43,011 bases of DNA, taken from positions 1 to 43,011 of the forward strand of contig JALSSV010000072.1 of NCBI GenBank assembly GCA_026984045.1, read 5' to 3'. Below, in pieces: positions 14,681 to 18,402 of this stretch (position 1 is the stretch's first letter; every line of letters begins with the position of its first letter). The position numbers and the translations under genes were made by a program. The notes under the pieces were generated by a model. The model was not told the origin of the DNA and searched no databases. It saw only the letters and a program-made list of their open reading frames with translations. Source of the DNA: Chromatiales bacterium. Lineage in GTDB: Bacteria > Pseudomonadota > Gammaproteobacteria > UBA6429 > Thiohalophilaceae.

Positions 14681-14801
14681 GGCTAAATGAAGGTTCCAAA
14701 TTCCAGACCATGGTTCATTGTGGGCACTGAGTCCTCTGGGACGGTGTTGGAATCGGGCACTCTTGCCTGGGTGGTTCGGTATTTGGAACTTCCATTCAGC
14801 C
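14681..14801. repeat. 121-bp fold-back palindrome between convergent genes
   Basis: Arm 1, 14681-14704 (GGCTAAATGAAGGTTCCAAA...), matches the reverse complement of arm 2, 14778-14801 (...TTTGGAACTTCCATTCAGCC), at about 20 of 24 positions. About 73 nt lie between. It starts right after the stop at 14679 and overlaps the last codons and stop (14796) of the convergent gene. It may act as a bidirectional terminator or be a small non-autonomous element. Confidence 0.65.
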
Positions 14802-15206
14802 TGCCGCTTCCGGCGGTGGAAACGGGTGGGGATCGCCGTATTCGTGCCGGCCGGGGGCCAGACGCTTGTAGTTGTTGATCATGATGAGGGTTTTGAAGAC
14901 CGTGGGCGCGTCGATCGCCGGCACCGCCAGGGCCACTTCCAGCTCGGCGAGGCCCGGATCGGCGGTTTCGCGGATGTGGATGTACTGGCGCAGGGTGACG
15001 CTGCCGGGAGTGGCGTCCCCGGCCTGCCGCTCCCGCCAGACGTCTTCCAGGGTGCGCAGCCGGGCCTGCCAGATCACCTCGCGGCCCTGCAGCCGTCCGG
15101 AGAAGCGGATCCGCGCACTCGAACCGCCGAGCGGTTCGAGTGCCTCGTACACCAGACGGTTCTGGGAGATGTCGGAAGATGAGCGGCGCATGGACTGACC
15201 GGGCAT
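14796..15206 (-). CDS. Hypothetical protein (136 aa)
   Basis: Begins MPGQSMRRSSSDISQNRL, with AGGGAA upstream of the ATG at 15206 (an inner Met at 15191 is possible). The core contains VYEALEPLGGSSARIRFSGR, a REVIWQARLRTLEDVW stretch and a C-terminal IMINNYKRLAPGRHEYGDP. It is soluble, mixed alpha/beta, without Cys. Family not recognised. The gene's 3' end lies inside the palindrome at 14778-14801, so its last residues (PPPEAAG) may derive from that element. Confidence 0.65.
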   Translation of the reverse strand: MPGQSMRRSSSDISQNRLVYEALEPLGGSSARIRFSGRLQGREVIWQARLRTLEDVWRERQAGDATPGSVTLRQYIHIRETADPGLAELEVALAVPAIDAPTVFKTLIMINNYKRLAPGRHEYGDPHPFPPPEAAG

Positions 15207-15281: not shown

Positions 15282-16163
15282 ATGAAACGTCGAACCCTGC
15301 TCAAATTTGCTGCCGGCGGCGCCCTTGGCGCCGGGTTGTTGCCGTGGTGGCGGCAACGGGAAGACGTCCCGGCAAGCCGACCGGCGCCTGCCTCGCTCGT
15401 CGCCACGCCCCCACCGGCATCGCCGCCGGCAAAAGCCACGCGGCCGGATCGCGCCGAGCGGATCCGCCGCTTCGACGAGGACCTGCCCGGCGACGTGACT
15501 CTGCCCGCCGGACGCTGGCCGGTGTTCCTGGCCACCCTCGCCCGCCTCGAACGGGTGCGGGATCTGGTGGGCCACGGCCATTTCGCCCTGCTGGGTTTCG
15601 ACGCCATGTTGCGCCACGCGCGTGGCCATGCTTCCGTGGGGGCCTTCCCGCCCGACGAGCTGGCCTTCATGGAGGAGATCTTCGCCCTCGACGCCCGCCG
15701 CCTGGGCTTCGAGGGGCCCCGGGTGCTGCCCCGGCTCACCGCCACCATTCCCGTGGCCGAGACGGTCAAGGTACCGGGCACCGGCAATTACCTCTACCGC
15801 GACATCTCCCTCGCGCTTTACCGCCGCCTGCGCCGCGACGTGGGCGAGAGCCTGATCCTCACTTCGGGGATCCGTGGCATCGTCAAGCAGATGCACCTGT
15901 TTCTGGCCAAGACCCGTCGCACCGGCGGCAATCTGTCCCGCGCCGCCCGTTCGCTCGCCCCGCCCGGCCATTCCTACCACGGCATCGGGGATTTCGACGT
16001 GGGCAAGGCCGGCTTCGGCCGCGCCAACTTCACCGCCCGCTTCGCCGAGACCGAGGAGTTCCGGCGCCTGCGACAACTGGGTTACGTGCGGATCCGCTAT
16101 CCCGAGAACAACACCACCGGGGTGCGCTACGAACCGTGGCACGTGCGGGTGGTGTCGGCATGA
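15282..16163 (+). CDS. M15-family (VanY-like) peptidoglycan carboxypeptidase
   Basis: 293 aa, exported: the N-terminus MKRRTLLKFAAGGALGAG looks Tat-like (RR followed by a hydrophobic stretch), then a Pro/Ala-rich linker to about residue 58. Zinc-site motifs of the M15 family are present: GHSYHGIGDFDVG (His233, Asp239) and EPWH (Glu284, His286). The His-to-Asp spacing is one residue shorter than in classical VanY (SxHxxGxAxD), so this is a divergent subgroup. It probably trims peptide stems of peptidoglycan in the periplasm. Its stop overlaps the start of the next gene by four bases (ATGA), so the two are translationally coupled. Confidence 0.85.
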   Translation: MKRRTLLKFAAGGALGAGLLPWWRQREDVPASRPAPASLVATPPPASPPAKATRPDRAERIRRFDEDLPGDVTLPAGRWPVFLATLARLERVRDLVGHGHFALLGFDAMLRHARGHASVGAFPPDELAFMEEIFALDARRLGFEGPRVLPRLTATIPVAETVKVPGTGNYLYRDISLALYRRLRRDVGESLILTSGIRGIVKQMHLFLAKTRRTGGNLSRAARSLAPPGHSYHGIGDFDVGKAGFGRANFTARFAETEEFRRLRQLGYVRIRYPENNTTGVRYEPWHVRVVSA

Positions 16164-17476
16164 GGCGCTGGCTCCTGCTGCTGTGGCTGTTGTCGTCTCC
16201 CCTGGCCGGGGCGGCGAAGGGACCCGCTTTCACCCTGCATCGCCTCGACGGCGAGGCGCCCGGCCCCACCCTGCTGGTGATCGGCGGCATCCAGGGCGAC
16301 GAGCCGGGCGGTTTCCATGCCGCCTCGCTGCTGGTGACCGATTACCACATCGAACGGGGCCACCTGTGGGTGGTGCCCAATCTCAACTTCCCCAGCATCC
16401 TGGCCCGCTCGCGGGGCGTGCACGGCGACATGAACCGCAAGTTCGCCGACATTCGCCCCGACGATCCCGAATACGCCGCGGTGCAGAAGATCAAGCGGAT
16501 CATCCTCGATCCGCAGGTGGACATGGTGCTCAACCTGCACGACGGCAGCGGTTTCTATCGGCCGCAGCATATCGACAGGCAGCACAACCCCCGGCGCTGG
16601 GGGCAGAGCGTGATCATCGATCAGGCCGAGCTGCCGGGCGTGGCCCACGGCAACCTGGCCGGGCTGGCGGCCCGGGTGCGGGCCCACGTGAATGCCCGTG
16701 AACCCCGCCCCGAATACCACTTTCACGTGCGCAACACCCGCACCCGCGAGGGCGATGCCGAGATGGAGAAGAGCCTCACCTACTTCGCCATCCGTCACGG
16801 CAAGCCGGCCTTCGGCATCGAGGCCAGCAAGGCCTTCCTCACCCACCGCCGGGTCCGCTATCACCTGCTGGCGGTGGAGGGGTTCATGAACGCGCTGGGC
16901 ATCGGTCATCGCCGCGACTTCCCGCTCACCGCCGAAGCCGTGCGTCGGCGCATCGACGCCAACCTGCGTCTGGCCCTCTACGATGCGCGGATCCTGCTGG
17001 ACGTGAGCGGCGGCGCCCGCCCCCGGCTGGGCTACATCCCCATGCCGCCGGACCGCCCGCTGGCCTTCACCGCCAGCAATCCCCTGCTGGCCATCGTCGG
17101 TGAACGGAACCGCTACCGGGTGCGCTACGGCAACCGCCGCGTGACCCTGCTCGAACCCCAGTATTTCGAGTTCGACGACAGCCTGAAGCGGATCGTGCTG
17201 GAGGTGGACGGTGAGCGGCGTGAAGTGCCACCGGGGAGCCTGGTGCCGGTCCATGGCCGCTTTCGCGTCGCGCCGCTGGCCGGCTACCGGGTCAACGTGA
17301 TCGGTTTTCGCCGCCCCGGCCGGCGGGACGAGAGCGGCGTTCTCATCCGCCGCCAGGACATCGCCAGCCGGTTTTCGGTGGATCGGCAGGGTCGCCGCTA
17401 CCGGGTGGAGTTCTACCGGGGCAACCGCTTCAGCGGCATGGTGCTGGTGGAGTTTGCGGCCCCCTCCGGCGCCTGA
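16160..17476 (+). CDS. M99-family peptidoglycan DL-carboxypeptidase, Csd4/Pgp1-like
   Basis: 438 aa with a signal peptide (RRWLLLLWLLSSPLAGAA). The metal site reads GGIQGDEPGG with Gln45 and Glu48, and NLHDGSGF with His127; Glu221 in AFGIEASKAF fits the catalytic Glu. These are the Csd4 residues (Gln46, Glu49, His128, Glu222) shifted by one, including the unusual Gln ligand. Family role: Csd4 (Helicobacter) and Pgp1 (Campylobacter) trim tripeptide stems to dipeptides in the periplasm and are needed for helical shape. The C-terminal 150 residues form the extra beta domains of that family. Coupled to the upstream M15 gene. A role in cell curvature here is inference. Confidence 0.88.
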   Translation: MRRWLLLLWLLSSPLAGAAKGPAFTLHRLDGEAPGPTLLVIGGIQGDEPGGFHAASLLVTDYHIERGHLWVVPNLNFPSILARSRGVHGDMNRKFADIRPDDPEYAAVQKIKRIILDPQVDMVLNLHDGSGFYRPQHIDRQHNPRRWGQSVIIDQAELPGVAHGNLAGLAARVRAHVNAREPRPEYHFHVRNTRTREGDAEMEKSLTYFAIRHGKPAFGIEASKAFLTHRRVRYHLLAVEGFMNALGIGHRRDFPLTAEAVRRRIDANLRLALYDARILLDVSGGARPRLGYIPMPPDRPLAFTASNPLLAIVGERNRYRVRYGNRRVTLLEPQYFEFDDSLKRIVLEVDGERREVPPGSLVPVHGRFRVAPLAGYRVNVIGFRRPGRRDESGVLIRRQDIASRFSVDRQGRRYRVEFYRGNRFSGMVLVEFAAPSGA

Positions 17477-17899: not shown

Positions 17900-17928
17900 T
17901 ATAATACTTGACTAATACGGACGGATAT
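17900..17928. promoter_or_regulatory. TATAAT -10 overlapping an IscR type-1-like site
   Basis: TATAAT sits at 17900-17905. From 17904 to 17928 the sequence ATACTTGACTAATACGG... fits the published E. coli IscR type-1 consensus (ATASYYGACTRWWWYAG...) at about 22 of 25 positions by my alignment. Its position over the -10 and presumed start of transcription of the plus-strand gene would suit repression. A cluster-binding Rieske gene begins 61 bp to the left. Binding by IscR or another Rrf2 protein is inferred. Confidence 0.5.
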
Positions 17929-17967
17929 TTTCCGGTGCCCGCAATGCCACCGCTGGAGGTGAACACC

Positions 17968-18402
17968 ATGTCTGAATCCACTGCCCAGACAGCCGAGGCC
18001 ACAGAAGCCACCCAGAACGACATGAACGAAGAGCAGCGCGCCGCCCTGGCCCGCGCCATCATGGCCATTCTCGACCGCTGGGGCCTGTCGGCCGAGCAGC
18101 AGGTGCAACTGCTCAACCTGCCCGAGAATACCCCCAGCCGCATGCTGCGGCGCTTCCGCGACAACACCCCCTTCCCGGACACCAAGGAAGTCAACGAGCG
18201 GCTCGAGCACATCATCGGCATCGCCGACGCCCTGCGCACCACCTATCCCCACTATCCCTCCATGGGCCTGATCTGGATGAAGCGCAAGAACAAGCGCTTC
18301 CAGCGTCGTGCGCCCATCCAGGTGATGGTAGAGGACGGCCTGGAAGGCATCGTCGCCGTGCGCTCGCACCTCGACTGCTCCTTCGACTGGTTCAATTCCT
18401 GA
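17968..18402 (+). CDS. MbcA/ParS/Xre antitoxin-like domain protein, orphan
   Basis: 144 aa. Starts MSESTAQTAEATEATQND after a perfect GGAGGTGAA. The body has a short helix-turn-helix-like part (WGLSAEQQVQLLNLPENTPS) followed by the C-terminal toxin-binding type helices seen in the Xre/MbcA/ParS (DUF2384) family. The end differs from typical members (PIQVMVEDGLEGIVAVRSHL). In toxin-antitoxin pairs a RES-domain toxin normally sits next door; none is visible, so a stand-alone regulator is more likely. Family assignment moderate. Confidence 0.65.
   Translation: MSESTAQTAEATEATQNDMNEEQRAALARAIMAILDRWGLSAEQQVQLLNLPENTPSRMLRRFRDNTPFPDTKEVNERLEHIIGIADALRTTYPHYPSMGLIWMKRKNKRFQRRAPIQVMVEDGLEGIVAVRSHLDCSFDWFNS

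Follow-up and report, generated by a model that had tools for sequence, protein, structure and literature searches.

The analysed window, a 43,011-nucleotide stretch of gammaproteobacterial DNA, contains a gene for a divergent M15-family zinc peptidase that overlaps a gene for an M99 peptidase of the Csd4/Pgp1 type. We propose that the two products form a periplasmic module for the trimming of peptidoglycan stem peptides, in which the M15 enzyme would most likely be an LD-carboxypeptidase supplying the M99 enzyme and cell curvature would be the likely purpose. We put the probability of this reading at about 0.45. Peptidoglycan trimming is one of the few known routes to curved or helical cells, and trimming-based cell shape has been worked out in Helicobacter, Campylobacter, and Bdellovibrio. 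A Csd4-type enzyme paired with a divergent zinc peptidase would be a simple marker for such a mechanism in gammaproteobacteria and elsewhere, and would test whether an unrelated enzyme can perform the supplier step. The finding amounts to a supplier-consumer hypothesis for two enzymes that can be put to the test, and opens no new kind of system. The features of the locus are given below in window coordinates.

14796..15191, minus strand: divergent conserved hypothetical gene beside the M15-M99 pair (similar proteins in L087, L091, and L153)
15282..16163, plus strand: M15/VanY-family zinc peptidase gene, 293 aa, predicted Tat export (Pfam VanY, 62 distinct relatives, AlphaFold model)
15282..15350, plus strand: Tat-type signal of M15, MKRRTLLKFAAGGALGAGLLPWW (RRx-hydrophobic pair, R3 and R4 conserved)
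15444..15716, plus strand: N-terminal helical domain of M15, residues about 55-145, with no Pfam family (model and conserved residues)
15972..15998, plus strand: short zinc motif of M15, S231-Y-H233-G-I-G-D237-F-D239 (His-x5-Asp; H233, D237, and D239 invariant)
16131..16142, plus strand: E284-P-W-H287 of M15, catalytic Glu and third zinc His (invariant in the alignment)
16160..16163, plus strand: ATGA overlap of the M15 stop and the M99 start (the junction reads ...gtcggcATGAggc)
16160..17476, plus strand: M99 peptidase gene, 438 aa, Csd4/Pgp1-type DL-carboxypeptidase by family (PF17033 and PF17129, Csd4 top in PDB)
16160..16216, plus strand: Sec-type signal peptide of M99, MRRWLLLLWLLSSPLAGAA (read from the sequence; N-terminus of the model low-confidence)
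16292..16822, plus strand: M99 active site span with Q45 and E48 (QxxE), R85, R93, H127, and E221 (alignment with Csd4)
17171..17455, plus strand: M99_C C-terminal domain (Pfam PF17129)

Judged by all the sequence and fold features tested, the M99 protein is a true relative of Csd4/Pgp1. It matched Peptidase_M99 (PF17033, 273 bits) and Peptidase_M99_C (PF17129, 90.5 bits), both with cut-offs of 27, and its best sequence match in the PDB was Csd4 of H. pylori (E about 1e-100), with 40% identity across the full structure. The AlphaFold model (pLDDT 92.6) has the three-domain Csd4 fold; its top match was Csd4 itself (4wck, TM 0.85/0.88 over 422 columns), and all others were far behind. The residues Gln45, Glu48, His127, and Glu221, which had been singled out in an initial annotation of this DNA, are all present and align with the QxxE...H metal site and the catalytic Glu of Csd4, a DL-carboxypeptidase that acts on the tripeptide and requires Glu222 (PMC3310797, PMC4220969). 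Among 114 M99 relatives plus Csd4, E48, H127, and E221 were found in 115 of 115 sequences, and R85 and R93, which correspond to two Arg residues of Csd4 that change conformation (PMC4220969), in 114 of 115 each. Position 45 was Gln in 101 sequences and His in 14; the zinc-site Gln was termed strictly conserved among Csd4 homologues (PMC4220969). The nearest relative, from a MAG labelled Chromatiales (L003), was 80% identical. The initial annotation had also stressed that the protein has the length of Csd4. Its 438 residues are indeed close to the 437-439 of the crystallised chains, but the match means little, because M99 relatives range from 427 to 503 aa. The protein thus resembles Csd4 (H. 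pylori) and Pgp1 (C. jejuni) in both domains, the metal site, the catalytic Glu, the two Arg, the fold, and the presence of a secretion signal, and differs from them in its gammaproteobacterial host and in the overlapping M15 gene.

The M15 protein, by contrast with canonical VanY or LdcB, belongs on sequence and model to a divergent subfamily, because it has the M15 fold without the canonical His-x6-Asp spacing. Pfam VanY (PF02557) was matched at 52.6 bits (cut-off 25) and also in all 25 aligned relatives, in which R198, Q203, H233, D237, D239, E284, and H287 were invariant. The LAS site is therefore complete, with SGxR, two His, Asp, and Glu (R198, H233, D239, E284, and H287), and D237 is an additional invariant acid. 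As the initial annotation had noticed, H233-x5-D239 is one residue shorter than the H-x6-D of LAS/M15 enzymes; in alignments to LdcB and VanXYc, a one-residue gap brings D239 into register with the canonical Asp. Its question whether the short motif is constant can be answered affirmatively, since His-x5-Asp occurred in 62 of 62 distinct relatives, including copies away from M99 (a strict pattern finds 61, and the remaining one reads GDYDLG). The possibility that M15 is a pseudoenzyme that has lost a ligand was considered and rejected as unlikely, as all predicted zinc and catalytic residues are kept and invariant.

The AlphaFold model of M15 (pLDDT 85, domain above 90) matched VanXYg, VanXYc, VanYB, and LdcB over residues about 144-293 with Z scores of 10-12, the four differing by no more than about 1.5 Z. 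Carboxypeptidases of the family scored Z 9-12, and the endopeptidases ChiX and Ply500 Z 5-7. The closest solved sequence was the LD-carboxypeptidase BaLdcB (E 7e-8 with the single sequence), which was also first in the profile search, with VanXYc a close second. The helices of the N-terminal domain are well predicted, and G97, F101, F122, E126, G142, and F143 are conserved there; relatives had no Pfam match besides VanY and the signal, and the structure matches covering this domain in a search with the whole model were weak (Z 2.2-2.6). M15 therefore shares its catalytic fold and residues with the LD-carboxypeptidases LdcB/DacB and the DD-peptidases VanY/VanXY of family M15B, but differs from them in the His-x5-Asp motif with its added invariant Asp, the Tat signal, the N-terminal helical domain, and the coupling to M99.

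The two proteins are probably exported by different routes, M15 by Tat and M99 by Sec, because an RRx-hydrophobic pair was found in 56 of 62 M15 relatives (most of the others being truncated or of uncertain start) versus only 1 of 114 M99 proteins. R3 and R4 of M15 are more than 90% conserved, and the Pfam TAT_signal was recognised in 3 of 25 members. The zinc amidases AmiA and AmiC of E. coli are likewise Tat-exported peptidoglycan hydrolases, as M15 is predicted to be, although they differ from it in fold and bond.

The M15 and M99 genes share the 4-base ATGA overlap already reported in the initial annotation, which in sequence terms is an arrangement of translational coupling; across relatives the gap varies from -17 to +33 bases. 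Considering that dozens of genomes keep the motif, the gene order, and an overlap or near-overlap of the two genes, the pair is not due to chance, and its distribution marks it as a conserved module and not a local oddity. The 30 genomes with M99 among 58 relatives all belong to the family of the window. At the level of the order, 40 genomes were examined and 23 carried M15, each with M99 adjoining it (23/23). In Campylobacterota, M15 occurred in 61 of 397 genomes; M99 was present in 60 of these 61, versus 243 of the 336 genomes without M15 (Fisher p 7e-7, relatedness not corrected), and lay directly after M15 in 23 of the best 30 M15 loci. Altogether, 51 distinct M99 proteins from three phyla have M15 directly upstream, and the pair was also seen in Arcobacter, Sulfurimonas, a Helicobacteraceae MAG, a Desulfobacteraceae MAG, and a Halodesulfovibrio MAG, the latter two being single MAG contigs for which a binning error is possible. 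The suggestion that the pair lies outside Epsilonproteobacteria is right insofar as it occurs in a gammaproteobacterial family, but a restriction to such hosts has to be rejected, since the pair is common in Campylobacterota (Arcobacter, Sulfurimonas). The Desulfovibrio-type genomes checked had M99 without M15.

Several members of the family of the window likewise have M99 without M15 in the same neighbourhood, which speaks against the module reading and indicates that M15 is dispensable. They retain the same flanking genes, including a homologue of the minus-strand gene at 14796..15191, which means that M15 is present or absent at one and the same locus. On the M99 tree, nine changes were needed to account for M15 linkage, without distinguishing gain from loss. 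In the open literature we found no report of an M15 partner for Csd4/Pgp1, and as far as open papers show, a known shape enzyme paired with a member of a divergent M15 subfamily is undescribed.

Single loci show further arrangements. In two family members without M15 (L153:5579-6907 and L154:5052-6353), a Cys-rich CxxxCxDTCC protein follows M99 directly; the one scanned had no Pfam match at 1e-5. The sole M15-bearing Campylobacterota genome without M99 (L192:1450-3224) has M15 directly before TsaD, and in Campylobacter the spot before TsaD is taken by a Pgp1-type gene (L039:2002-4343). A Sulfurimonas locus (L147:1517-3923) has an M15 of this type but no M99; its neighbours in the gene run are a nuclease-like gene, AnmK, and an APH-family (phosphotransferase-family) kinase. 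This run suggests a wall-recycling context and fits a wall-related substrate for M15.

A different partner was found directly upstream of 12 distinct M99 proteins, all from Sulfurimonas, namely a Csd6/Pgp2-type protein (YkuD plus Cds6_C). Csd6, Pgp2, and Bd1075 are LD-carboxypeptidases with a YkuD and an NTF2-like domain; they occupy the same slot as M15, yet are unrelated to the zinc enzyme in sequence and chemistry, and M15 had neither a YkuD nor a Cds6_C domain in Pfam. On the M99 tree, the Csd6-linked M99 proteins group together with full support, and each carries His at the position of the atypical Gln of Csd4. Two Sulfurimonas genomes carry both arrangements, with a separate M99 copy for each. 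In one of them (G062), the Gln copy adjoins M15 (L036) and the His copy adjoins Csd6 (L139). The 14 M99 proteins with the zinc-site His among the 115 comprise the Csd6-linked Sulfurimonas clade (L069-L081, L139) and the second tandem copy of Malonomonas rubra (L025:6286-7584). The split of the zinc sites by partner offers a natural experiment on the atypical Gln ligand of Csd4. Since Pgp2 supplies the tripeptide substrate to Pgp1 in C. jejuni (PMC3961634) and a Csd6/Pgp2-type gene precedes M99 in Sulfurimonas, the slot upstream of M99 is plausibly, by analogy, a supplier slot. It is mainly for this reason that we favour an LD-carboxypeptidase for M15.

In the proposed mechanism, M15, probably exported by Tat, would strip the C-terminal D-alanine off peptidoglycan stems that are not crosslinked; its most likely activity is that of an LD-carboxypeptidase converting tetrapeptides to tripeptides. 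The Sec-exported M99 enzyme would then take off meso-diaminopimelate, leaving dipeptides that could not be crosslinked, and coupled translation would match the supplier to the consumer. The trimming would likely serve the same end as in Helicobacter and Campylobacter, namely to curve the cells by regulating crosslinking locally, a shape role that may be assigned to the pair from the genetics of Csd4 and Pgp1 (PMC3310797, PMC3310789).

The genome of the window encodes further enzymes that bear on this scheme. A Csd6/Pgp2/Bd1075-like protein with both YkuD and Cds6_C (L194:4163-5470, plus strand; matches to 7o21, 6xj6, and 4xzz; Cds6_C 97.5 bits) is unlinked to M15-M99, and a second Cds6_C protein adjoins its gene. 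About 4-5 kb away lie the genes for DacA, a PBP5-like DD-carboxypeptidase, and for RlpA, RodA, and PBP2 (L194 9900-16092, minus strand). Cds6_C proteins were present in 17 of 21 M15-bearing family members and accompanied M99 in 35 of 38 genomes checked, although the matches in Desulfovibrio-type genomes were weak and may represent a different NTF2 protein. The idea that M15 replaces Csd6 as a general rule was rejected on these grounds, as a Csd6-like enzyme coexists here with M15 and M99. The two-enzyme trimming series of the initial annotation is plausible in that a Csd4-type enzyme is coupled to an M15 peptidase, but the genome has at least four such enzymes. With PBP5, the Csd6-like enzyme, and M99, all three successive trimming steps are already encoded and M15 is an addition, which weakens the simple LD and DD assignments alike. 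A second maker of tripeptides beside the Csd6/Pgp2-like enzyme is not obviously needed, and the sequence and fold of M15 do not separate LD from DD specificity.

The alternative that M15 is a DD-carboxypeptidase converting pentapeptides to tetrapeptides is rather unlikely in our estimate. M15 would then take the first of three steps, followed by the Csd6-like enzyme and M99, and would be a beta-lactam-insensitive counterpart of the activity of PBP5 and Csd3/Pgp3. VanY is by name a family of DD-carboxypeptidases, VanXYg, VanXYc, and VanYB are among the top structural matches, an enzyme for the middle step is encoded in the genome, and Cds6_C proteins are found almost always with M99. However, the product would feed the Csd6 step and not M99, so that the near-strict dependence of M15 on M99 is explained less well; moreover, PBP5 is present already, and the closest solved sequence is an LD-carboxypeptidase. 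Least probable of all seems a different bond, whether M15 is an endopeptidase (cutting L-Ala-D-Glu or a crosslink) or acts after M99, on the dipeptides that M99 leaves. A changed substrate would then account for the altered His-x5-Asp loop, the invariant D237, and the additional N-terminal domain. The constancy of the short motif and D237 (62/62), the conservation of a domain that has no Pfam family, and the existence of endopeptidases such as ChiX and Ply500 within M15 are consistent with this, but those endopeptidases matched clearly below the carboxypeptidases, and M15 retains the carboxypeptidase SGxR motif.

Compatible with any assignment of the bond, and in our view unlikely, is a role of the pair in recycling, crosslink density, or stress in a host that is a straight rod. 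The orphan M15 near AnmK and the family members without M99 would agree with it. On the other hand, in each of the two species tested the cells became straighter when Csd4 or Pgp1 was lost, and the homologues reported come mainly from curved or helical bacteria (PMC3310797, PMC3310789). Returning to the supplier-consumer reading, the recurrence of the same pair in distant bacteria argues that it is probably a ready-made kit for cell-wall trimming, which by analogy may bend cells. A wider proposal is more tentative: M15 could found a distinct Tat-exported subfamily that serves as a dedicated Csd4-type partner, making the M99 substrate in at least two well-sampled phyla, and the pair could be a transferable curvature module parallel to the Csd6/Pgp2-Csd4/Pgp1 route; some Sulfurimonas would use both.

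Downstream of the pair, window positions 17908-18402 encode a conserved Xre/MbcA/ParS-antitoxin-like protein with no obvious toxin adjoining, and other family members encode similar proteins in this neighbourhood.
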